Below are positions 1 to 12,806 of a DNA stretch of 64,000 nucleotides, in pieces. Numbering within the stretch: position 1 is the first letter of the stretch; each line of letters begins with the position of its first letter. The DNA comes from Phycisphaeraceae bacterium. GTDB lineage: Bacteria; Planctomycetota; Phycisphaerae; Phycisphaerales; Phycisphaeraceae. The stretch covers positions 1 to 64,000 of the forward strand of contig JADZCR010000008.1 of assembly GCA_020851465.1 (NCBI GenBank), in the 5' to 3' direction. The position numbers and the translations under genes were made by a program. The notes beneath the pieces are model-generated. The model was not told the origin of the DNA. It made no database searches and worked only from the letters and a program-made list of their open reading frames with translations.

Positions 1-117
1 AGGCGGTTGGCTAAGGACTACGAGCGGCTGCCCGAGACGCTGGCCGGGGTTCACCTGATGGCCTTCGCCTGCATCATGCTCAACAAGGCGGTCGTGAGTT
101 TCGCGATAAGTGCATAA
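1..117 (+). mobile_element. IS5-family transposase, C-terminal end (cut by window edge)
   Basis: The first 38 codons are open and end in TAA. The translation starts RRLAKDYERLPET and continues with an AGVHLMAFACIML stretch, which is the characteristic C-terminus of IS5-type DDE transposases (IS427-like group). The catalytic part lies left of the window, so it is unknown whether the element is intact. A CTAG at 124-127, just after the stop, may mark the element's right end, because many IS5 relatives insert at TA or CTAG. That boundary is an inference. Confidence 0.75.
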
Positions 118-677
118 CACGCTCTAGAGCGGTAGCCGCCACGTAACCGTTGTAAATTCACCGAAATCTTTCTTGAGTACACCGCGGTGGGCGAACACCA
201 CCGCGCTCAACGCCTGATTATGAATTGAAGTCGCTACGTTCTTCTTCACAGCAAGGAAGCACAAAAAAGCTTCGATATCGGACGACTCAATGCGATTGGG
301 TCATGCCATGGCTTTCCACCCTCTGGACCATGGCAGCGAAGGTAATTATTTATCCAATGAGCGCAGGCAGCTTACGTTTTGGATGACAAATATCGAACGC
401 AGCAAAGCTCGTGAATCTGCTGCGTCAGGTTTATCGTGTTCCCATGTCGGAAGATAACCCGAATATTATTCGAGCAAAGATGGCTTCTTTTACGCGGATA
501 GTTGGAGTAAACCCAGAACGGGGATCCAAGATGTCTTGATAATAAAACCCTTGATGCTGATGTATACTCGCGCGATTCGATAGGTTGCCATCTTGTGAAT
601 GGATGGTCCTTTCGTGAGATTATCAATGGATAGGACACCAACGACGTTTTCTGACCAAGGTAGGCAGGAGCCAGTGG
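118..677. other. Non-coding stretch, nothing recognised
   Basis: These 560 bases between the transposase tail and the toroid gene are visibly more AT-rich than their surroundings. The only sizeable open frame, on the minus strand at 372-704, gives a low-complexity translation with no recognisable domain. I see no RNA gene here. The promoter of the downstream gene should lie in the right half, but no convincing -35/-10 pair stands out. Confidence 0.5.
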
Positions 678-1676
678 ATGGCGGCTAATCCAGCCAGACG
701 ACAAGTCTCGACGTCAAACAGATCGGTCATCCGCTGGCTGCTTGATTCTGACCCTTCGATCCGTTGGCAGGTGATGCGTGACCTGACTGATGAGAGCGCT
801 GAGAAGGTCGCTGCCGAGCGTGCAAGGGTCGCTACCGAGGGCGTGGGCGCGCGGTTGCTCAGCCTCCAAGCACCCGACGGGCGGTGGGGTGGCGCGGCGT
901 GGAACCGCGGGTGGGACTCGACGATGCACGTCCTATTGCTCTTGCGGGAGATGGGGCTCAATCCCGCCAGCGACGAGGCACGGCACGCAGTGGAACTCGT
1001 CCGTGGCCGCGTAACATGGCAAGGATGCGGTCCACAGGAAGCGGACGACAACCCCTTCTTCGCCGGCGAGGTCGAGCCCTGCATCAACGGCCAAGTCGGG
1101 CTGGTCGGTGCCTATTTCGGCCAAGACGTCCGGGGCATCGTCGACCGGTTGCTCGCCGAACAGTTACCTGATGGCGGCTGGAACTGCGAAGCCGCCATCG
1201 GCTCAACGCGGTCGTCGTTCAACACCACGATCTGCGTGCTCGAAGCCCTGCTCGAATACGAACGAGCCGCCGGGGGCAATCCAGAGCTGACCGGGGCCCG
1301 CCTCCGCGGGCAGGAGTACCTCCTCGAACGTCGTCTCTTCCGCCGGAAGTCGACCGGCGAGGTGATTGAACGAGATCGCAAGGGCGACGCCGTGTGGACG
1401 CGCTTCGCCTTCCCAACGTGGTGGCACTACGACGTGCTGAGGGGGCTCGAATACCTGCGCCGCGCTGGCCACGCGCCCGACGAGCGCGTAGCCGAGGCAA
1501 TCGCCTTGGTGGCGTCGAAGCGTGACGACGACGGCACGTGGCCGCTCGAGACCCAGTACCCCGGCAAGATGCCGGTCGAGACGGACGACGGTGAGGGCCG
1601 GCCGAGCCGGTGGAACACACTCCGCGCCTTACGAGTACTGGATTGGTATTCAGCACGAGACTGGCCTCTTCAGTGA
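678..1676 (+). CDS. Squalene-cyclase/prenyltransferase-like toroid protein
   Basis: A 332-residue protein with at least three QW-type repeats of the alpha/alpha-toroid fold: APDGRWGG near residue 66, LPDGGWNCE near 165 and DDDGTWPLE near 288. These repeats define squalene cyclases, prenyltransferases and related terpenoid-cyclase-like proteins. The protein is about half the length of a true squalene-hopene cyclase, and I see no DXDD catalytic motif, so a cyclase activity is doubtful. No signal peptide or membrane segment is visible, so it is probably cytoplasmic. It stands alone, and no sterol or hopanoid genes are nearby. The family assignment is fairly safe and the substrate is unknown. Confidence 0.75.
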   Translation: MAANPARRQVSTSNRSVIRWLLDSDPSIRWQVMRDLTDESAEKVAAERARVATEGVGARLLSLQAPDGRWGGAAWNRGWDSTMHVLLLLREMGLNPASDEARHAVELVRGRVTWQGCGPQEADDNPFFAGEVEPCINGQVGLVGAYFGQDVRGIVDRLLAEQLPDGGWNCEAAIGSTRSSFNTTICVLEALLEYERAAGGNPELTGARLRGQEYLLERRLFRRKSTGEVIERDRKGDAVWTRFAFPTWWHYDVLRGLEYLRRAGHAPDERVAEAIALVASKRDDDGTWPLETQYPGKMPVETDDGEGRPSRWNTLRALRVLDWYSARDWPLQ

Positions 1677-1695
1677 CGCTGTCGATACCGAGGTG

Positions 1696-1758
1696 GCCTA
1701 ACAACCGGTTGCAGCAGATGGTGCTAAGTGCCGAGTCGCAGAGCTTGGGGCGTTACGC
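1696..1758 (+). other. Possible degenerate attC-like site
   Basis: Nineteen bases after the stop of the toroid gene there is GCCTAAC (1696-1702), which fits the RYYYAAC left core of integron attC sites. GTTACGC follows at 1752-1758 and is one base away from the GTTRRRY right core. The two cores are inverted and 49 bases apart, in the range of short attC sites. Pairing of the inner L boxes is poor. A short site directly after a lone gene is typical of a gene cassette, and an integron-integrase relic lies at 19.8 kb. It could be chance. The rest of 1759-2115 shows nothing. Confidence 0.25.
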
Positions 1759-2115
1759 TCCACTTCGTCGTGCGATGTTTCGGCTGCGCCCGGAAGAATG
1801 AGTTGGCAAGCGAGCAACTTGAAAACGGTAACTACTTCGCAAAAGTGATTGCTGGAAGGTGAGTCGGCGAATCGTGATGTCTCGCAGCTTTTTATGCCGT
1901 TGCGATCAAGCCGACTTTGTTCGATAGCGGAACTCCATCACCTAGCCAGCGTTAACAGTGATTTCGCGGCGTATCGCAGCAACCATGTCAGGCGTGAAAA
2001 CTCCGAAAAACATACAGGAAATCACGCATCATTCGTGTTACTCTTGATTTGAACCGATATTGGTTATATAAAATGAGCGTCTGCATCTCTGGTCTCGCAA
2101 AAACATGGAGCCGTG

Positions 2116-2958
2116 ATGATGCCGCGGAGGATCAGGCAAATCGGCGCGGGTGACAGGTCAGGGTTTACCCTGGTCGAGCTGCTGGTGGTCCTTTCCATAA
2201 TCACGCTGCTTATCGCGATTCTTTTACCCAGCATTGCGGCTGCGCGAGAGCGGGCGAGGGCCATTGTCTGTGCGAGCAACTCTCGCCAATCCGTAATCGC
2301 CGCCACGCTGTGGACCTATGACGCCATCGACCGGCTGCCGAGTATGTGTAACCCGCCGAAAGACGTCACCGGCATTGATCCCGCATATTTTGTGACGGGA
2401 CTTCCCTATGCAAATCCGAACTGGACTCCCCCGACGCCGCCGGGAATTTACAGCGCGACACCGCAGTATGGTTATGCCCAGCGCTACATGGCTCGAAAAT
2501 ACCTGGACAACAATTACTCAGTATTTCGATGTCCAACCTCAAAGACCGTTTTCGATCCGGGTCACATCTGGGGGCCCGGATATTTCTCGCACATGGGATG
2601 GTCGGGATTCTCCGATTACAAAAATCGACCGCCCTGGTTCACCGAGTCATGGGGTCGCGGTCACTGGTACGCCTACAACGGCGATCCCATCCTCTTAACC
2701 AACGTGGTAAGCCCGAGGCACAAAATCTTCTGGCTCGACGGCGAAGATTTTTACTACACTCTCTGGAGCCAAATGTGCGGGTCAAGCATCAACGGCGGCT
2801 ACTACGATAAAAACTTCACGCGCCATCTGGGGGGCGTTAACACCATCATGGTGGACGGCCATCACGAGTTTCATAAAGACGAAGACCTCGGCTCGGGCGA
2901 TGGTGAGTACAACAACACCACAAAGCGATACTGGTGGGCGTATAACCTGGAGCAGTAA
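2116..2958 (+). CDS. Prepilin-like protein with H-X9-DG motif
   Basis: A 280-residue protein of the type II secretion pseudopilin-like family that is expanded in planctomycetes. The N-terminus has a short basic leader, the prepilin peptidase site RSG|FTLVE and a hydrophobic helix of about 20 residues. The C-terminus carries HLGGVNTIMVDGH, the H-X9-DG signature. A GGAG five bases before ATG 2116 supports this start over the GTG at 2113. No pilus or secretion genes are nearby. Family members are thought to be exported or inner-membrane-anchored proteins; the function of this one is unknown. A related but divergent protein lies on the other strand at 4.1-4.8 kb. Confidence 0.88.
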   Translation: MMPRRIRQIGAGDRSGFTLVELLVVLSIITLLIAILLPSIAAARERARAIVCASNSRQSVIAATLWTYDAIDRLPSMCNPPKDVTGIDPAYFVTGLPYANPNWTPPTPPGIYSATPQYGYAQRYMARKYLDNNYSVFRCPTSKTVFDPGHIWGPGYFSHMGWSGFSDYKNRPPWFTESWGRGHWYAYNGDPILLTNVVSPRHKIFWLDGEDFYYTLWSQMCGSSINGGYYDKNFTRHLGGVNTIMVDGHHEFHKDEDLGSGDGEYNNTTKRYWWAYNLEQ

Positions 2959-3443
2959 ACAATCAACTGCGCTTTGCTGCTGTCCCGCGCCGCATCAAAC
3001 AACGGCGGTTTTTATCTCTCGACTTATCTGCTCCTCTAAACCCCGGATTTTAGCTGCTGGATACCGCGTATATCGCGGACATAGCGCAACTGACGCGCAG
3101 ACTCGATAACACGCTGCCGCTCCTGGCGCCGCACCGCGAAACCCTCCGCACGCTGGTCGAAGCACAACCCGATACTTCACGCGGCGAGTAAACCGTGGCT
3201 CTAGATTGTCGGAGCGGCCTCGGACATTGGTCTCGCTACGGCAATGATGTCACGCTAAGGGCGTTTGCGCCGTCTGCCGCAGAGAGCATATAAAGAAAGT
3301 GTTTCGGGAACTGGGAAGATAGGCGTTCCGCCTCGCCCACTGGCGTGACGGGGCGCACTCTCTGACTCTCTCGTAAACAGAGAGCGGCCAAGCAATAGAT
3401 CCGTTCGCACCGAACCCTACCGCGGCTTGGAACTCTGGCACTA
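2959..3443. other. Intergenic region with a short open coding-like fragment
   Basis: No complete gene is visible in these 485 bases. A plus-strand frame is open from 3054 (right after an in-frame TAG) to a TAA at 3189-3191. It has no ATG but a protein-like translation of 45 residues (start LLDTAYIADIAQLTRRL), which could be the C-terminal scrap of a lost gene. I cannot name the family. Confidence 0.35.
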
Positions 3444-3926
3444 CTAAAACGGCAGCCGCCATTCCCACACGATGCCGTCTTCGGGATGCAGGATCGTCTC
3501 GGCATGCTGGAATCCGAGCTTCTCAAGGATGCGATGCGAGGCGTTGCGCTGCGGCAAAGTCTGGGCGGCAATGATGGGCTGCGATGTATGTCCCTGGGCA
3601 ATTCCCACCAGTTGGGCAGCCATCGCGGTGGCGAAGCCCTTTCCCTCGCAGTCAGGAAACGTGAAGTAAGCGATCTCAACTCGTCCCTCGCAAGGTGGCC
3701 CCTTGAAGCCGCAGGTTCCCACGACGGCACTGTCCGCCATCGCCAAGTAGCAAATCCACGGCTCTTCAAAACCCAAAGCCTCATACATGCCCACGGTAGC
3801 CCGGATAGCTTCACCCGCGACTGCCGAAAGGTTCGCTGTACAGCCGCGTGCGATGCCGTCGCGGCCGATCGGAATGAGAGTTATGGAACCACTCACGGTC
3901 GGGATTTTATAGCGATCAGTGAGCAT
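3444..3926 (-). CDS. GNAT-family N-acetyltransferase
   Basis: A 160-residue protein with the GNAT fold pattern. A central beta-strand with VEIAYFTFPD is followed by the acetyl-CoA pyrophosphate-binding loop CEGKGFATAMAAQLV (R/Q-x-x-G-x-G/A type) around residues 95-110. A C-terminal part has the NASHRILEKLGF motif seen in RimJ-like members, which acetylate protein N-termini, antibiotics or small amines. It is probably cytoplasmic, and the length is normal for a single-domain GNAT. The gene is monocistronic, with its neighbours about 190 bases upstream and on other strands. The substrate cannot be deduced. Confidence 0.85.
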   Translation of the reverse strand: MLTDRYKIPTVSGSITLIPIGRDGIARGCTANLSAVAGEAIRATVGMYEALGFEEPWICYLAMADSAVVGTCGFKGPPCEGRVEIAYFTFPDCEGKGFATAMAAQLVGIAQGHTSQPIIAAQTLPQRNASHRILEKLGFQHAETILHPEDGIVWEWRLPF

Positions 3927-4114
3927 GGAAAACTGATTTCCATCGTCACCATCCAGACTGTCTTCAGTACCTTCCGCTATTTTTGAACTCGCACCGGGTA
4001 AGTAAGAAAAGGACGAAAAGCACTAACCCATTCAGGTCGCTCCGCTGGGTGTGCGACGGAAATGTCGGCCCTATCCGAGCGTGCGGGATCGCGCGGTCAG
4101 TGCGCGGTGAGCGG

Positions 4115-4846
4115 CTATCGGCGTCTGCCGGTAGGCATCCATTCTCCGCCGAGGCTGGTGCTGTACGCGAAGGAGCGGGTTTCCATGGAGACCCCGCCGT
4201 CACCCCAGAGCAGGTTCAGAGCCTGCGGGTTTTCCAGTGAGCCATGATTCCCCGTCGGAGGTGAAAAGAAAAAGACGCTTCCGGTTCCCTTGGTGTACTC
4301 AAACACCAGCGGCGTGGTGGCGAGTACGCGATCGAGTTTGTAGTCCGCCACCGGCCATGGCGCGCTGGCCGGGCGCGGCAGAGCAAAGTTCGTCGCTTCG
4401 TAAAGGCCGGAATGAATCTGATAACCCCGCGCGTACATCTGGGCACAATAGGCGTTGCGGCCTATCGACGAGCCGGGCGTGGTCACTGCCGACGGGCAGT
4501 AGAAAATCCGCGTGTCCCGATGGAGGTAGTAGAGCAACGGCTGCCAGTAGATCCAACCTTCTTCCGTGCTGGCGCCGCCGTATGACCTCACCGAAGGGTA
4601 ACTCCACCCCTGCTCATAATTAAATTTACTGCGCAGATAGGCTTCGCCTTTGTGGTCGTTGGCAAAGGTGAACGTGCTTAACCCCACCTGGCTGAGGTTG
4701 CCGGCACAAACCACACGCCGCGCGTGTTCTCTGGCCGCTCCCAGCACCGGCAGCAATAGCGCAACCAACATCGCGGTGATCGAAATGACGACCAGCAGTT
4801 CGATCATTGTAAACCCCCGGACGCACGTCGAGCACTTGCTTTTCAT
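4115..4846 (-). CDS. Prepilin-like N-terminal cleavage/methylation protein
   Basis: The N-terminus [20 protein letters not shown] is a classic prepilin leader with cleavage at G|F and a following hydrophobic helix. I chose ATG 4846 (243 residues) because a longer frame from 4912 would add 22 residues before the leader. The C-terminal half has [10 protein letters not shown] followed by LLWGDGGV, a relaxed form of the H-X9-DG signature with a longer spacing. Like the 2.1 kb gene, it belongs to the large planctomycete family of pseudopilin-like exported proteins. No strong ribosome binding site is visible. Function unknown. Confidence 0.82.
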
Positions 4847-5006
4847 TTGGGGTCGTCCGGCAAAAACGCAGGTCGAGGAGAAAGCAGAGAGACAGGGATT
4901 ACGATTGAACATCGTCAGAATATGGCTCCCGCCTCCTTTTTAAGCACCAACTCAGGAAATGCGACACATCCGCAAGTCTTTTGTGCCACAACCGGAGGCT
5001 GCATGG

Positions 5007-5762
5007 CTACCGAGTGGTATATCCGCCATTGGCGAAGATCGTCTGGCCGGTGATCCACCAGCCGTCGGTGACGAGAAACAGCACCAGCGGAGCGATGTCC
5101 TCGATCTTGGTCAGGCCACCCAGAGCTGATGCAGACTTGTGGTACGCGACCGCTTCCGGCGTCTCCTGGCCGTAAAAGAACGGGGTATCCATCGGTCCCG
5201 GCCCTACCGCCGTCACCGAAATGCCTCGCGGCCCGAACTCTTTGGACGCAGCCCGCGTGTAGTGTTCGACTGGGGCCTTCCCGCCGGCATAGGTCGCATA
5301 CAGGCCGGTGTACGCAGACAGCAGCGAGGTCACAATGGTGCAGATCTTTCCGCCGTCGTTGAGGTGTTTGCCCGCTTCTTGAATGAAAAAGAACGCGGTC
5401 TTGGCGTTGACGGCGGCCATCTCGTCGTACTCGGCTTCGGTCACTTCCGTAAACGGCTTCTTGAGCACCTTGCCGACGGTATTGATGGCCACGTCAAGCC
5501 CGCCGAATTTCTCTTTGGCCGCAGCGAATACTTTGGCCACGTCGGCGACCTTGGTGAAATCACCCTGAATGGCAAACGCTTCACCGCCTGCCTTCTTAAT
5601 GGCGGCGACCGTGGCGTTCGCGTCGGATTTGGTTGAGGCACTGTTGTAATGAACGATCACTTTCGCGCCGGCCTCGGCCAATTGTCGGCTGATCAGTCCG
5701 CCGAGATTCTTCGCCCCACCGCCGACCAAAGCCGTTTTGCCCTTGAGTTTCTGTCCCGCCAT
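5007..5762 (-). CDS. SDR-family oxidoreductase
   Basis: A classical short-chain dehydrogenase/reductase of 251 residues. It has a glycine-rich nucleotide loop GGGAKNLGG (residues 14-22) and the active-site pair Tyr158-x-x-x-Lys162 within YAGGK, preceded by a Ser near 146. The C-terminal SDR signature VGPGPMDTPFF is also present. The usual NNAG strand reads INTVG, a divergent form. The start at 5762 is fixed by a strong AAGGAG six bases upstream; the frame is open further upstream but has no better start. It is an NAD(P)-dependent cytoplasmic enzyme of unknown substrate. Downstream of it (4847-5006) nothing is seen. Confidence 0.88.
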   Translation of the reverse strand: MAGQKLKGKTALVGGGAKNLGGLISRQLAEAGAKVIVHYNSASTKSDANATVAAIKKAGGEAFAIQGDFTKVADVAKVFAAAKEKFGGLDVAINTVGKVLKKPFTEVTEAEYDEMAAVNAKTAFFFIQEAGKHLNDGGKICTIVTSLLSAYTGLYATYAGGKAPVEHYTRAASKEFGPRGISVTAVGPGPMDTPFFYGQETPEAVAYHKSASALGGLTKIEDIAPLVLFLVTDGWWITGQTIFANGGYTTR

Positions 5763-5949
5763 TGTTGTCTCCTTGAGGTATGTAATGATTCTATCCGTCG
5801 ATGAGATCTCACTGCGAGCTACATCGTAATGTTGTGGCGGAGCGTCGCGCTGCAACTTCGTGCAAAAACCATCGAACTTGCCAAGGTTGTCGGACGCCCG
5901 CTGGAGAGATGTTACGAGGAGACGAGACAACACGGGGATACAGGCCCGC

Positions 5950-6099
5950 GCAACAGCTTCGGCGAAGGCCACGGACGGCTGCATCTGGGGGCTGACGAAT
6001 CGGTGCGTTCACCTCGTGCCGCCTGACGGTGGCAGAGTTGAGGTGATCGCGGAATACGAGGACCATGCCGGAGGCCCGTGGTCAACGACCTATGGTTAA
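5950..6099 (+). pseudogene. C-terminal remnant of the beta-propeller family (copy 1)
   Basis: The frame ending at TAA 6097-6099 reads CIWGLTNRCVHLVPPDGG and then EVIAEYEDHAGG. This matches the C-terminus of the intact propeller gene (IWGLTDRCVF near 12.63 kb, then LADYEDC) and the decayed copy at 8.6 kb. About 70 bases (6006-6076) align without gaps to 8562-8632 with only a handful of mismatches. Upstream sequence can be followed to about 5950 only with a frame change. There is no start codon or RBS, so this is a relic. It shows that the propeller gene once existed in more than one copy here. Confidence 0.7.
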
Positions 6100-6145
6100 C
6101 GATCAGATGTACGGCCGGCTATCTGAAGTCTCGCCGTCAGCCTGC

Positions 6146-7639
6146 TCAGTACCCGGCCTCCGTGATCGGCAGCGGATCAATCGTCTGGGCCATCCGGCTG
6201 GCCAATAGCTGTAACATCTGAGCTTTGATCTCTATTGCCGATGGATCGTCCCACAGGTTCCGTACCTCACCCGGGTCGTGCATCAGGTCATAAAGTTCAC
6301 CCGACGGCCTCTGAACCTGGTTGTGGACAGCCGTCAGCGAATACTGACGATTTCGCACGCCTGTCAGATAAGCATGACCGACCTTGTGATAGCCACCCGG
6401 AATGGCGCGGTGATACTCAAAGTACACACTGTCGCGGTGAGTGGAAGGATCGCTCTGCCCGGTAAGAATCGGCAGAAATGACCGCCCCTGCATCCCCGCA
6501 TAAGGTGGTGTGGCCGTCGCCTCCAGTAAAGTCGGAGCAATATCCACCAATTCCACCAGCGCCTGGGATCGCAACCCCTTGCTGAAGCGGGCGGGCCATT
6601 GCATCAACAAGGGCACGTGCATCATCTGCTCATAAAAATACGCACCCTGGAAATAGATGCCGTGATCTCCGAGCATCTCGCCATGGTCAGACATGAACAA
6701 AACGATTGTATTTTCGTACTGCCCGGTTTCACGCAGAACCTTCATGACCCGGCCGACCTGGTAATCGATATGGTCGATCATGGCCCAGTACGCCGCACGA
6801 ATCATGCGATGATCCGTCGGGGTCATCGCACTGGCTGCGAAATAGCCGCTTCCCCCGCCCCAGACACCCTCGCGATCGATTCGCTGGAAAATCGGCTTGT
6901 TCTCCAGCTCACCGGGCTGATACGTCGGCAACGGAATCTCATCCAGCCGGTCAAGATAAGGCTCCAGATAACGTCGCGGGGGATCGTAAGGATCATGCGG
7001 GTCTTCAATGTTCATGGTGAAGAACCACGGCCGATCAAGCGTACGGCTGACGTTGATGAAATTGATCGCCCGTTGAGTGATCCAGGCCGTATTACTGGTC
7101 TTCTCATCCATACCGAAAGTCACATATTTTGACCCGGCTACCGGTTCACGTTTGAACTCAATTCCGTGTTCGCTCAGCCATGCCGTATATGGGCTGACCG
7201 GTGTGGCAGGCGGGTGCAACGACCAGTCAAAGACGCGATAGCCGTCATCGATCCGCGGCTCGCACCAGTCTGCGATCGGCGGACTGGACGGCCCGAGGTG
7301 AAACTTGCCTGCATGACCGCACACATATTCCGCATCAGCCAGCAGACGGGGCAGAACCTTTTCAGAAGGTGGAATGCGCTGGGCATTACGATTCATCCGT
7401 GTGGTGCTGGGATAACGCCCGGTCAGAAAACTGGCCCGGCTCGGACCACAGATGGGGTTCTGGCACCACGCCTGCTCCATCACGACACCCTGAGCCGCCA
7501 TGGCATCAAGATTCGGAGTCGTCACCCACGCATTACCGTTGCAGCCCAGCGTGCTGTGTTGCTGACGGTCGGTCGTGATCCACAGGATGTTGGGGCGTTT
7601 TGATAAAGCCGAAGTTTCGGATGAACTGATTTGATTCAT
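6146..7639 (-). CDS. Type I sulfatase (formylglycine-dependent), no signal peptide
   Basis: A 497-residue arylsulfatase-type hydrolase. The signature Cys64-Gly-Pro-Ser-Arg within ICGPSRASFLTGRYP is the site converted to formylglycine by an FGE-type activase. Metal-binding residues are present in the N-terminal ITTDRQQHS stretch (Asp24) and in SDHGEMLGDHG. The length is typical for a bacterial polysaccharide or glycan sulfatase. The N-terminus is polar (MNQISSSETS), so a cytoplasmic location is likely, unlike most planctomycete sulfatases. It sits next to the heparinase-type locus, which suggests action on sulfated oligosaccharides. No activase gene is in the window, and no clear ribosome binding site is seen. 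Confidence 0.92.
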   Translation of the reverse strand: MNQISSSETSALSKRPNILWITTDRQQHSTLGCNGNAWVTTPNLDAMAAQGVVMEQAWCQNPICGPSRASFLTGRYPSTTRMNRNAQRIPPSEKVLPRLLADAEYVCGHAGKFHLGPSSPPIADWCEPRIDDGYRVFDWSLHPPATPVSPYTAWLSEHGIEFKREPVAGSKYVTFGMDEKTSNTAWITQRAINFINVSRTLDRPWFFTMNIEDPHDPYDPPRRYLEPYLDRLDEIPLPTYQPGELENKPIFQRIDREGVWGGGSGYFAASAMTPTDHRMIRAAYWAMIDHIDYQVGRVMKVLRETGQYENTIVLFMSDHGEMLGDHGIYFQGAYFYEQMMHVPLLMQWPARFSKGLRSQALVELVDIAPTLLEATATPPYAGMQGRSFLPILTGQSDPSTHRDSVYFEYHRAIPGGYHKVGHAYLTGVRNRQYSLTAVHNQVQRPSGELYDLMHDPGEVRNLWDDPSAIEIKAQMLQLLASRMAQTIDPLPITEAGY

Positions 7640-7699
7640 AATGAAACTGATTCTTGGGATTGGAAGTAGAACGATCGACCATATTGATGGTTTGCGAGA

Positions 7700-7872
7700 T
7701 CAACATGCAGTAAACGGCGGCGGAGTTACATCCGTCTTGAACTCGATCCGTTCGATGGACAATGCCCGATGAGTATGCAGATCAATCTCCAGATAAACAC
7801 CACAGACTCGGGGGTCAGCCGTCCTGACATGCCTACGATATCATCAGGCACGACGATTTTCAGATTTGCCAT
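7700..7872 (-). pseudogene. Frameshifted coding remnant, family unknown
   Basis: Reading leftwards from ATG 7872, MANLKIVVPDDIVGMSG is protein-like. After a shift of frame near 7830 the translation continues as RTADPRVCGVYLEIDLHTH and ends at TGA 7700-7702. Both pieces look coding and fit end to end, which suggests one frameshift in a short tail of a lost gene. I do not recognise the family. Nothing else is seen from 7640 to 8106. Confidence 0.3.
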
Positions 7873-8106
7873 GTCGGAAATGTTTCACCATTTGCACACC
7901 TCATAGGCAGAGGGACAAGGACACCGGGCTGGTTGCACAGAAATTTACCCCTCAGATCTTTCCACCATCGTCGCACCGTTGCTCAGGTTGCAGGGGAATC
8001 GTTTTTGAAGCTCCTGGATACGAGAGCCATAGTGTCGCTTCATGCTTGTTCCAACCCCGTCATCCTCCGCGAACAGTCCGACGGTAATCATCGCGCGATT
8101 CGGGCC

Positions 8107-8280
8107 CTACCTGTTCACCCTTGGCTCGCAATTGCCCAGTTCGCGGGCGACCTGGGAAACGGACTTGGTCTGCAGCATCTCGGTAACCTGCCGCAGTTCT
8201 GGCGTCAGGCCGTCGAGCATCGAATCCATGTCGAGTTGGAGATGGGCACGCTCCTCAGCGGGGCGCGTCATCATCCAACT
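8107..8280 (-). pseudogene. Sigma-factor region 4-like remnant
   Basis: The minus frame from 8280 to the stop at 8107 reads RPAEERAHLQLDMDSMLDG and then LTPELRQVTEML, QTKSVSQVARELG. This resembles the helix-turn-helix of sigma-70 region 4 as found in ECF-type factors. The recognition part breaks off in a stop (VNR*), and LFAEDDG, which would suit the end of such a protein, appears just beyond it. There is no region 2 and no start, so this is a fragment. Assignment rests on pattern only. Confidence 0.4.
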
Positions 8281-8286
8281 TTCGGG

Positions 8287-8721
8287 GGCATGCTGGTACG
8301 AGTTGCAGAATGGAGAGACGCACCCGATCGACCGCGCAAAAATCCGCCTGACGCCGACGAACTCCCCCCTGCTGTTCAGCGACGGGAGTTATGTGGAGCG
8401 CATCGACGGACTTGAAGTCGCGTACGTTGACACGAGTGGTCGGCGAACAACGATTGGGCGTCAGGCTCGTTCGCCATTCACCCGGAGACGGGTGAAGAAA
8501 TCATCATCCATTCGACGCTGGAGTTCGGCATCGTCTGGATCGACGTGAAATCCGGGCGAAGCGCGCACCTCGTACCGCCCGACGGCGGCGGAGTTGAGGT
8601 GATCGCGGAATACGAGGACCATGCCGGCGGCTCGGTCAATCGCTTCGGCTTGTGCTTCGGTGATGACGGCCACCTGTACTTCGCCAGCGGTACCCATCTT
8701 TTCCGCATGCGGGTAAAGTGA
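8287..8721 (+). pseudogene. Scrambled, internally deleted copy of the beta-propeller gene
   Basis: Three pieces of the propeller gene occur here in the wrong order. From 8287, CWYELQNGETHPIDRAKIRL and LLFSDGSYVERI match the middle of the intact protein (KWIELRGG, VLSDGTYISRI). At 8441 the sequence switches to a stretch nearly identical to codons 15-59 of the intact gene. At about 8566-8577 it jumps, in frame, to the C-terminal part (HLVPPDGGGVEVIAEYED, ending HLFRMRVK) and stops at 8719-8721. The N-terminal and C-terminal pieces share one open frame; the middle piece is in another. No proper start exists, so a functional product is unlikely. Confidence 0.75.
8441..8574 (+). repeat. 134-bp direct repeat, left copy
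   Basis: Aligns without gaps to 10996-11129 (constant offset of 2,555 bases) with four mismatches by eye. The two copies flank the whole heparinase-like gene in the same orientation. The left copy lies in the scrambled propeller relic. Confidence 0.9.
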
Positions 8722-8771
8722 CACAAAGGCTGTTTTCCCTCGCGGGGTTCATTTGTCGAAAGCAGACTTCC

Positions 8772-10949
8772 ATGAGTTTTGAGTTTGGCGTAGCGGCACC
8801 GCTCTATCACAAGCGTGTGCACCCACGCTTACTGGTAGATGACAAAAGCATCGCGCACCTCCGCAAGATCGTGAAGACCGGCGTGGCGAAGAAGCTGATG
8901 AAGGCGTTGCGAGAATACGTCGGGCCGCTGGTCGAAGCGGTTGAGGCCGTCGAAGATATGGTTGACTCGCAATGCGAGGCGCAACATCAAAACTTCCCGG
9001 AACTCAGCCGGGCGCGAGCGGCGCTTTGCTCGATCGCCATCGTGGGCGTCATCGACCAGAACGAGCGTGCGATCAACGCCGTGAAGAAGGTGCTCGACGG
9101 CATCCCGAAGGCCGAGGCGAAATGGAACCGTGACCGCTCACGGTACGGCTACGGCACGCGATACACGCTTCATCACGCGTATGACCTCGTGGCGAACTTC
9201 ATGACCGACATGGAGCGTCGAAACTACACCGACTGGGCAGTGCAGGCGTCAATCCGCGAATCGCTCGAAATGATTCGCAAAAATAACTTTCTCCGCTGCG
9301 CAGCCGCCAACATCCCGATGGCCGGGATGATCACCGCGCTGCACGGCGTGTTCGCGGTTGAAGGTGATCCAGGCGTACCAGACCTCTCGGCTGAGAAAAC
9401 GCTGCTGCTGCAATACCTCGAGGCTTCGCTCTACTCTGAACTCGGCGAGAACGGCTACGCGCACGAAGACATCGGCTACGGCACCCTCATGACGTCGGAT
9501 CTGGCGAGCTTGATTGAGGTGGCGCGCCGCGCCGGTGTCTATGACGCTTACACGCGGTGCCCGCGTTACCTGAAGTTTGGCCGGTCGATGCTCGCGTTCG
9601 TGCAGCCGTGGGGCAAAGCTCTCTCGAATACCGGCGACTACGGCGCGGACTTCGGCCACCGCGCGCCGGTGTTCCCGCGCATCGCTGCGGCGACGAACGA
9701 CCGCGTGCTGCTCTGGCTGCACGGTCAGCTTTCCTATCCCATCGCCACCTCCGGTCCGCGGGACATGAGCAAGCGTCGGCTGCATCATCCCGAATTGTTT
9801 ATCGGGCGCGATTACCAGATCCCCGTTGACTACACCTCGCTCGTGACGGTGGAAGATCTCAAGCCGCCGGTGCATCCATCAAAGGCGCGAGTGCCGACGC
9901 AGTACGCCGATCGCGATCGCGGCCTTGTGACGTTCCGCAGCAGTTGGAAATCCGACGCCACGTTCGTCGTCTTCGACGGGTCGCATCGCACACCGGCCGG
10001 ACAGGGCCACGCGCACGACAGCGGCGGGCACTTCAGCCTCTCGTCGCTGGGTGAGTACTTTGCGATCGACACGGGACGCTACAACATCGAGCAGGATCAA
10101 CACAACGTCGTGCTGGTCGATGGCAAGCCGGGCGTGAGTACCAACGGTGAGTGGCGGATGACCCACTACGCATCGCGACTCACCGGATACCGCCCCGATG
10201 CCTTCGTCGATACGTCGTCAGTGGATTCCTCGCAGACCTCAGACTGCTACTGGGCGCGGCGAACCCTCGGCTTGGTGAAAGACCCGACCAACGCCGGCGT
10301 GCCGAGCTATGTGTGGACGGTGGAAGACATCAACAAGAACAACGACTTCCACGAGTTCTGGTGGCAGATGCAGGTCAATCCCAGGCACAAAATCAAACTC
10401 CACAACGGTCACGCAACGGTGCAAGGCAGCAACCACGGCAACTTGCTCGACGTGCACATCGGCATGCCGTTTCCGAATCAGTACCCGAAGCCCAGTACTC
10501 TCGAGTGGTCACATGAGTTGAAACTATGCGGCTCTAGGAAGTACATCTTGAAGGACCCCTTGGAGCTGCAGGCTGACTACGTGCGGCTGGTGGGGAACGA
10601 AGAATACGGCCCGTCGTTCGCGCGACCGCGACTGCTGGCAAAAGTCAGCAGCTACGCGGGGAGGTTCATGTCGCTGATGATTCCGCGCAAGAAAGGCGCT
10701 GCTGCGCCGAAGGTCGAACGGCTCGATTCACTCGACAACTCACTTGCCATGCGAGTGACGTTCAAGAACGTGGAAGACACGATTATCTGGGCGTATGAGC
10801 ATCACCTCCTCGAAGCGGGTGATGTTGTGGCCAGGGGCAATTGGTGCGTCGTACGTCGTTCACGCAAGTCGGGCAAGGTACTCGCCCACGCGATCGATGA
10901 GGGCACACGACTTGAAGTGGCGGGCAAGCCGATGAAGCTCGACAAGTAA
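8772..10949 (+). CDS. Heparinase II/III-like polysaccharide lyase
   Basis: A 725-residue protein. An alpha-helical N-terminal half (toroid of heparinase-type lyases) is followed by a beta-rich C-terminal half carrying His413-Ala-His415-Asp416 in GHAHDSGGHFSLSSLGEYF and then AIDTGRY. This is the metal-site and core motif of the heparinase II/III family, which cleaves uronate-containing glycans by beta-elimination. I chose ATG 8772; a GTG at 8718 would add 18 residues and overlap the stop of the upstream relic, but neither has a good RBS. No signal peptide is visible, implying an intracellular enzyme working on imported oligosaccharides. It is followed after three bases by the propeller gene, so the two are co-transcribed. 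Confidence 0.85.
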   Translation: MSFEFGVAAPLYHKRVHPRLLVDDKSIAHLRKIVKTGVAKKLMKALREYVGPLVEAVEAVEDMVDSQCEAQHQNFPELSRARAALCSIAIVGVIDQNERAINAVKKVLDGIPKAEAKWNRDRSRYGYGTRYTLHHAYDLVANFMTDMERRNYTDWAVQASIRESLEMIRKNNFLRCAAANIPMAGMITALHGVFAVEGDPGVPDLSAEKTLLLQYLEASLYSELGENGYAHEDIGYGTLMTSDLASLIEVARRAGVYDAYTRCPRYLKFGRSMLAFVQPWGKALSNTGDYGADFGHRAPVFPRIAAATNDRVLLWLHGQLSYPIATSGPRDMSKRRLHHPELFIGRDYQIPVDYTSLVTVEDLKPPVHPSKARVPTQYADRDRGLVTFRSSWKSDATFVVFDGSHRTPAGQGHAHDSGGHFSLSSLGEYFAIDTGRYNIEQDQHNVVLVDGKPGVSTNGEWRMTHYASRLTGYRPDAFVDTSSVDSSQTSDCYWARRTLGLVKDPTNAGVPSYVWTVEDINKNNDFHEFWWQMQVNPRHKIKLHNGHATVQGSNHGNLLDVHIGMPFPNQYPKPSTLEWSHELKLCGSRKYILKDPLELQADYVRLVGNEEYGPSFARPRLLAKVSSYAGRFMSLMIPRKKGAAAPKVERLDSLDNSLAMRVTFKNVEDTIIWAYEHHLLEAGDVVARGNWCVVRRSRKSGKVLAHAIDEGTRLEVAGKPMKLDK

Positions 10950-10952
10950 GCG

Positions 10953-12806
10953 ATGAAATACAGTATTGAAAACCTTGGCATCGCCGGTTACGGCTCGGCG
11001 AATGACGATTGGGCGTCAGGCTCGTTCGCCATTCGCCCGGAGACGGGTGAAGAAATCATCATCCATTCGACGCTGGAGTTCGGCATCGTCTGGATCGACG
11101 TGAAATCCGGGCGAAGCGCGCACCTCGTGCCGGAAGACCCACTCGTTACGCTGACCTCGCGCGGGGCGACGCAGGGGCGTGACGGCCGGCTTTATCTCGC
11201 AGGTTGCCGCGTCGATCCGAAAGCCAACCAGCGCGTGTGGCATGTGCTCGTCTGGGATTGGAAATCGCCAGGCCTGCGTGTGGTGGCACCCTGCCCCAGC
11301 GGCGGAGACTACTATCACCGACCCGCGGCTGCGCCGGACGGCGCGATGATCTATGGCGGGTTTGCTGGCGTGCCTGCCCAGCGCTTCGATCCGGTCGCCA
11401 AATCCTTCACACGATTCGCCGATGCAAGCGAAGGCGTTTATATCGGCCTCGATGGGCAAGCCTACTCACGGAACGGCGGCAAGATCGAGCAGATCGACGC
11501 CAGAACCGGCACGCGAACGGCTGTTCACATGACGGATGGATCGGAATGCCCGGATGGGGAGATCGTCAGCGACGCCGACGGGCGCGTGATTGTGATTCCG
11601 AACTCGCGTCAAGCTAATACGGTTGTGAAATGGATCGAGCTTCGCGGCGGCCGAGGCGAGTTTGTCGATCCGGCGAAGACGCGCATCTCTCGCACCATCG
11701 TGGGCAACAACGAACTCGCGATGAGCTACGACATGGCGAAGATGCTGCCTTATGTGCTGTCGGACGGCACCTACATCAGCCGGATCGTGAGCAAGGAAGT
11801 GACCGTCGTCGCGCCGACCGGCGAAACGCGGACGTTCACCATGCAGCGGCACGACAGGCCGCAGCGGCTTTTCTCAATCGAGCGCTGCGATGATCGGTTG
11901 TTTGTCGGCGGGGTGCTGCCGCTCTATCTCATGTCGTTCGATCCTGCTTCGGAACGGTTTACAAACTACGGCAATCCCTCGCCTGCGCTCGGTGAGATTT
12001 ACAACATGGTGGCGTCGCGCGGGCGATTGTATTTCGCCGCATATCCGGGGGCGTATCTCGTCCGATACGATCCCAACCTGCCGTGGCGGCTCGACCGCAG
12101 CGAGCAGGCGAACCCGAAGCAACTCGGCCCGATGAAGGACGTCGGCCTGCACGTCCACCGCGTCCACGGGCGAGCGATTGACCCCAGCGACAACGTCTAT
12201 TTCGCTGCCTACGGCGATTACGGCTGTGAAGATTCCGCCGTCGTGCGGATCGACGCCAACACGGAAGCCGTGTCGCGATGGATCTATCCGAACACAAGGC
12301 TGATGTCGCTGGTCTATCTGTCGCGGACTCAACAGCTTCTCGCGAGCGAAACGCGGGGCGACGAGAAGACGATTCGTTTCACCTTCATCTGTCCCGATAC
12401 CGGGAAAGAAATTTCGTCCGAGCCGGTGATTCACGACCACGGCATGGTGACCTCATGGCTGCACGACGGCGGGGACTGGGTCTATGGTCTGCACGATTAC
12501 CGCGCGACCATATTCGCCTACAGCCTGCGCGAGAAGCGCATCGTCACGACGCTCCCCGAGATCGGCATGGGCGAGCATCTGAAGAACAGCCTCGTGTTCG
12601 GCAAAGACGGCAAAATATGGGGTCTCACGGATCGGTGCGTGTTTGCAGTCGATCGTGATCTCAAAACAAAGGAACGGCTCGCGGATTACGAGGACTGCAC
12701 CAACACCTACGCCGCCTTTCACAGCCGGTTTGGCGCCAGCATCGGACCTGACGGCCACCTCTACTTCATCAATGGGCCGTGCCTGATGCGGATGCGGACG
12801 AGTTGA
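10953..12806 (+). CDS. Cytoplasmic beta-propeller protein, partner of the heparinase-like enzyme
   Basis: A 617-residue protein without signal peptide or membrane segment. It is built of repeated four-strand blade patterns such as GRDGRLYLAG, APDGAMIYGGF, LVFGKDGKIWGLTD and IGPDGHLYFINGP. This resembles bacterial propellers with six to eight blades. I do not recognise a named family; oligogalacturonate lyases share this fold and pathway type, so a lyase or sugar-binding role is possible but unproven. The gene starts three bases after the heparinase-like gene. Pieces of two further copies are found as relics at 5.95 and 8.3-8.7 kb. Codons 15-59 are nearly identical to the relic at 8.44 kb. Confidence 0.75.
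   Translation: MKYSIENLGIAGYGSANDDWASGSFAIRPETGEEIIIHSTLEFGIVWIDVKSGRSAHLVPEDPLVTLTSRGATQGRDGRLYLAGCRVDPKANQRVWHVLVWDWKSPGLRVVAPCPSGGDYYHRPAAAPDGAMIYGGFAGVPAQRFDPVAKSFTRFADASEGVYIGLDGQAYSRNGGKIEQIDARTGTRTAVHMTDGSECPDGEIVSDADGRVIVIPNSRQANTVVKWIELRGGRGEFVDPAKTRISRTIVGNNELAMSYDMAKMLPYVLSDGTYISRIVSKEVTVVAPTGETRTFTMQRHDRPQRLFSIERCDDRLFVGGVLPLYLMSFDPASERFTNYGNPSPALGEIYNMVASRGRLYFAAYPGAYLVRYDPNLPWRLDRSEQANPKQLGPMKDVGLHVHRVHGRAIDPSDNVYFAAYGDYGCEDSAVVRIDANTEAVSRWIYPNTRLMSLVYLSRTQQLLASETRGDEKTIRFTFICPDTGKEISSEPVIHDHGMVTSWLHDGGDWVYGLHDYRATIFAYSLREKRIVTTLPEIGMGEHLKNSLVFGKDGKIWGLTDRCVFAVDRDLKTKERLADYEDCTNTYAAFHSRFGASIGPDGHLYFINGPCLMRMRTS
10996..11129 (+). repeat. 134-bp direct repeat, right copy
   Basis: Partner of 8441-8574. 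It lies inside the N-terminal coding part of the intact propeller gene. The adjoining 12-mer cacctcgtgccg at 11121-11132 also occurs at 6010-6021 in the C-terminal relic, in the same reading phase (His-Leu-Val-Pro). Confidence 0.9.

Follow-up and report, generated by a model that had tools for sequence, protein, structure and literature searches.

The propeller-gene sequence at 8249-8721 of the 64 kb window (the whole stretch of DNA analysed here) is very probably a chimeric pseudogene, that is, the remnant of an upstream propeller gene (P2) which carries a patch of its paralog P1 and which would have arisen by duplication and then deletion. Its three pieces run from a middle piece (M) through an N-terminal one (N) to a C-terminal one (C) (Table 1). 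The relic is real, but it is an ordinary outcome of gene decay at short stretches of matching sequence.

Table 1. Coordinates of the propeller-gene sequences, their joints and the associated heparinase-like gene.
Feature	Coordinates	Strand	Description
P3	5971-6085	+	Second, older relic, from the C-terminus of a P2-type propeller gene
M	8249-8458	+	From the middle of paralog P2 (family HMM positions about 196-282)
Left joint	8440-8458	+	End of M and P1 codons 15-21 agree at 17/19 bases
N	8440-8577	+	Copy of P1 codons 15-60; blastn 134/138
Right joint	8566-8577	+	12 bases common to P1 (11121-11132) and P3 (6010-6021)
C	8578-8721	+	C-terminal end of paralog P2; native stop TGA 8719-8721
Heparinase II/III-like gene	8772-10949	+	Pfam PF07940, E 3.7e-6
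P1	10953-12806	+	Intact propeller gene (617 aa) from which N derives

Composition of the relic

The pieces were located with a profile HMM of six relatives from which P1 was excluded, and 200 dinucleotide shuffles of 5600-8760 served as the control; the best score across these shuffles was 4.0 bits. The profile scored 44.3 bits for M (8216-8458, profile positions 196-282), 7.8 bits for N (8446-8580, positions 14-58) and 43.4 bits for C (8590-8715, positions 558-599). Tblastn with two relatives places the start of M at 8249; the HMM start at 8216, which overlaps a minus-strand frame, is less certain. A preliminary description of this DNA had reported a scrambled propeller-gene relic with two joints, which stands, and its order of middle, N-terminal and C-terminal pieces is confirmed by the HMM matches to all three. 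The coordinates that it gave were about right, except that M begins before 8287.

Between them, M and C leave a gap of about 275 family positions. The reading frame of M differs from that of N and C, with no read-through across the left joint, and the N+C frame lacks a start codon close to where it opens; a complete translatable gene is thus absent. Since M and C nevertheless retain partial similarity to the family, at 44.3 and 43.4 bits against the 4.0 of the best shuffle, the stretch has both properties of a pseudogene.

A short minus-strand frame at 8107-8274 resembles the C-terminal region of ECF sigma factors (TIGR02937, E 0.012, below the cut-off), and occurs as a single genome copy at E <= 0.01. 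None of five short upstream minus-strand frames gave a Pfam match.

The propeller family

P1 was modelled by AlphaFold2 as nearly all strand (pLDDT 83, pTM 0.82). With this model Foldseek returned 1281 PDB matches at E <= 0.001, and the best 50 of the 1281 are largely known propeller proteins, at TM values of only 0.22-0.43. No Pfam domain was found above the cut-off in P1, and its identity as a beta-propeller is supported by the predicted fold. The first nine PDB matches are to the periplasmic domain of the heparin-sensing BT4663 system (best E 1.9e-16, TM about 0.33). That a predicted structure matching a heparin/heparan sulphate sensor should be encoded beside a heparinase-like gene is suggestive, but the TM is low and propellers match one another easily. 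The stretch next to P1 (12912-15179, minus strand) specifies passenger-associated repeats and a PEP-CTERM sorting motif, and a single open frame of 9105 aa (36618-63935, minus strand) takes up almost all of the window's right half.

A broken member of the family was found in another Planctomycetota genome (G490:C107; L035/L052, 511-1574 of L035). Here HMM positions 1-214 are joined to 453-597 (matches at E < 0.05) with a change of frame and the loss of the middle. As this gene has also lost its middle, decay by internal loss has taken place at least twice in the P1 family. Like the relic it has N-terminal and C-terminal parts joined; unlike the relic it represents a simple internal loss in which the natural order is kept, and it bears no sign of a second paralog.

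Two parental genes

The relic had been described as a copy of the gene at 10953-12806. This has to be corrected, as only N comes from P1, M and C being derived from a divergent paralog, P2. The proposed alignment to 10953-12806 does give tblastn matches to all three pieces and, for N, a DNA match in which 8440-8577 corresponds to 10995-11132 (134/138 bases), but M and C reach no more than 38-45% identity with P1. N shares 39 of 41 residues with P1 (95%) and is 22-32% identical to six other members. M, over 55 aligned residues, is 38% identical to P1 and 32-45% identical to other members; the figures for C, over 49 aligned residues, are 45% and 35-51%, the shortness of both pieces setting a limit on the assignment of parentage. 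The 15-residue insertion of P1 is absent from M, and its 3-residue insertion is absent from C.

A tree was calculated with IQ-TREE (LG+G4, 1000 ultrafast bootstraps) using the distant members D24, D27 and D36 as outgroups and omitting other distant hits. P1, L029, L035 and N are separated from L021, L022, L023, L030, L031, M+C and the three outgroup rows by a split with UFBoot support of 100, which stays at 100 if N or M+C is omitted. Among the close members on the M+C side supports are only 43-63, and M+C can therefore be assigned to no single member. A three-residue insertion near the N-terminus occurs in P1, L029 and L035 only, among the alignment rows printed. Based upon the split and the insertions, these alignments indicate that the relic is a chimera of two paralogs.

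A copy of the 10953-12806 gene with its own parts rearranged would explain why P1 is matched by all three pieces, but this highly improbable reading is contradicted by the identities (38-45% for M and C against 95% for N), the missing insertions and the position of M and C across the split from P1, and is rejected; to save it, M and C would have to have changed much more rapidly than N since a single copying event.

The joints and a second relic

At the left joint the protein similarity of M extends to 8455-8458, and over 8440-8458 the relic agrees with P1 at 17 of 19 bases. The two mismatches (8448 and 8449) fit the frame of M itself and would most likely belong to P2. At the right joint identity to P1 continues to 8577, and identity to P3 is unbroken from 8566 except at 8574, the one change in the 12-base sequence that is the relic's own. 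P1, taken in full, has no longer exact match with the 118-base P3 stretch than these 12 bases; after shuffling of P1's first 600 bases, an exact match of at least 12 to that stretch occurred in 4 of 500 shuffles. Short homology is thus found at both joints, 12 bases on the right and 17/19 on the left, the latter compared on the P1 side with the P2 side presumed. The N-C joint falls between corresponding blade sequences, 8482-8712 aligning with P1 535-615 (36%, tblastn).

P3, which does not figure in the preliminary description, was matched at profile positions 537-570 with 17.1 bits, the best of 200 shuffles being 4.0 (HMM without P1). It shows 89% DNA identity to 8561-8639 of the relic (C piece) over 74-76 bases, and serves as a model of the P2 C-terminus upstream of the right joint. 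The core of N (8459-8565) differs from P1 at a single base in 107, that at 8480; set against the 11% divergence of C and P3, the copying is therefore young. The region 5800-8720, which includes an intact sulfatase gene (6146-7639, minus strand, Pfam PF00884), resembles a graveyard of cassette remains.

The genomic slot

A gap of 50 bases separates the stop codon of C from the ATG of the heparinase-like gene. This ATG, at 8772, is likely to be the true start rather than the GTG at 8718, judging by homology to L021, which begins at 8772. In the same-family genome G034:C175 (L021) a heparinase-like gene, 62% identical to that of the window, is preceded by an intact propeller gene whose end lies about 96 bases away. 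Because C occupies the slot of this intact gene, and in view of the parentage, we regard the relic as what is left of an upstream P2 that carries a patch of P1. The G034:C175 propeller is not specifically nearest to M+C, either by identity or in the tree.

Six heparinase-like loci are known outside the window cassette (L021, L024, L028, L056, L057 and L058). One of the six (L021) has a close family member directly upstream; distant members lie near L024 and L028, and none was found in the fetched stretch at the other three, so that the synteny argument depends on L021. L028 (G000:C6:66000-78000) holds the second heparinase-like gene of the same genome as the window, 52-53% identical, which faces, at about 550 bases, a stretch distantly related to the propeller family. 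Propeller matches were found in 4 of 51 family genomes, 3 of 397 genomes of the class and 3 of 392 of the phylum, these draws overlapping partly and each counting the window's own genome; the family draw contained no second genome of the genus. The pair of propeller and heparinase-like gene is thus rare at the cut-offs used. A scan of contigs gave 15 loci, 7 of them close (L029-L035), of which L030 and L035 are apparently the two G490 loci. Neither an intact P2 nor, except for that of G034:C175, an intact propeller beside a close copy of the heparinase-like gene was found in these genomes or in the contig scan.

Proposed origin

We infer an ancestral order of P2, heparinase-like gene and P1. 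A tandem duplication of about 2.55 kb, from the C-terminus of P2 through the heparinase-like gene to codon 60 of P1, would have taken place between two copies of the 12-base direct repeat and have joined N to C in frame. A deletion from mid-P2 to P1 codon 15, guided by the 17/19 match, would then have taken out the remainder of P2, the additional heparinase-like gene and the opening codons of P1, so that M, N and C were left. The passage from M to N is a forward jump, of the deletion type, and that from N to C a backward jump, of the duplication type, so that one duplication followed by one deletion would give the observed order. Only N (about 138 bases) would remain doubled, and the heparinase-like gene would again be single. 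The ancestral order and the P2 side of the left-joint homology are reconstructed, no intact P2 having come to light in the genomes searched. Heparinase fragments were found neither in 1-8771 nor in 10950-36000 of the window, nor was any other DNA repeat of the cassette found in the window, as this route predicts.

We prefer duplication followed by deletion because bacteria commonly form both types of join at short direct repeats: in the Salmonella study of Sun et al. (2012, PMC3411829) such repeats lay at the ends of every spontaneous deletion and duplication that was confirmed by experiment. The joints of the relic likewise lie in short homology; those events were recovered from laboratory Salmonella cultures, whereas the relic would be a fossil with both types of join in one place. 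A route of three events (duplication of the whole cassette and two deletions) is possible but less simple.

A single template switch is the rival that fares best, although we think it rather unlikely. Replication of P2 would have jumped into P1, copied about 125 bases and returned to the end of P2, replacing about 830 bases. Such an event would be one instead of two, and it would suit the short homology at both joints and a donor 2.5 kb away in the same orientation; on the other hand it requires two switches, forward and back, and it should leave the same sequence as duplication then deletion, so that nothing in the sequence separates the two.

A misassembly that put the N copy in this position is very improbable. 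The genome is in 20 contigs, and the longest exact run common to the relic and P1 (93 bases, 8481-8573) is reachable by short k-mers. Four differences nevertheless separate the N copy from P1, and without N the M and C pieces still flank a joint in the expected order and slot. The joint homologies of 12 and 17/19 bases, moreover, fall far below the usual length of assembly k-mers.

The open frame of N and C

N and C are fused in frame, as had been noted, and form one frame from 8440 to the TGA. The 94 codons attributed to it hold as 93 sense codons and a stop, but no ATG, GTG or TTG lies near its beginning; counted from the preceding stop the frame has 96 codons. Leaving CTG aside, the first start-type codon is the GTG at 8545, which would give 58 aa, and no ribosome-binding sequence could be recognised by eye in the 20 bases before it. 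The 94-codon frame thus has neither of the signals, start codon and ribosome-binding site, that a mini-protein would need. Stop-to-stop frames of at least 94 codons number 248 in the 64 kb window. The frame was modelled with a mean pLDDT of 41.5 (AlphaFold2, single sequence without an alignment, a weak test). Its openness is presumably inherited, two open parent frames having been joined in blade register.

The preliminary description saw here how a mini-protein might be born. That the frame is open to the native stop and that its joint falls between corresponding blade sequences would suit a working product of 58-96 residues, made from two propeller blades. With its first start at GTG 8545 unaccompanied by a recognisable ribosome-binding sequence, 248 equally long frames in the window and so low a pLDDT, albeit in a weak test, this is scarcely credible; nor was a second such fusion seen in the homologue searches (family, class, phylum and contigs). 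It is rejected for want of a start near the beginning of the frame and of a confident fold. Equally slight is the chance that N-C is a newborn short protein in which short homology has joined the strand sets of two paralogs at matching blade positions, and which uses a non-standard start and is expressed alongside the heparinase-like gene. The relic's product is most likely not translated and functionless.

Relation to known systems and significance

Disrupted beta-propeller genes next to intact ones have already been described by Pereira and Lupas (2022, PMC9218822), one of whose examples comes from a Verrucomicrobia bacterium. As set out in the cases that they present, these are, like the relic, fragments beside a propeller gene, and arose by deletions and frameshifts. 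They concern highly repetitive propellers in which one gene was broken in place, whereas the relic combines two divergent paralogs in scrambled order. Neither this locus nor such a propeller chimera was found in the literature searched, mostly at listing level, which does not prove its absence from print.

Expression of the mini-frame would make it a new instance of a protein built from the blades of two genes, a reading unsupported here. The relic is a clean example of the decay of propeller paralogs, in which short sequences common to blades and paralogs serve as break points. It illustrates that an open, in-register chimera can arise without selection, and is a warning against reading such frames as new genes.
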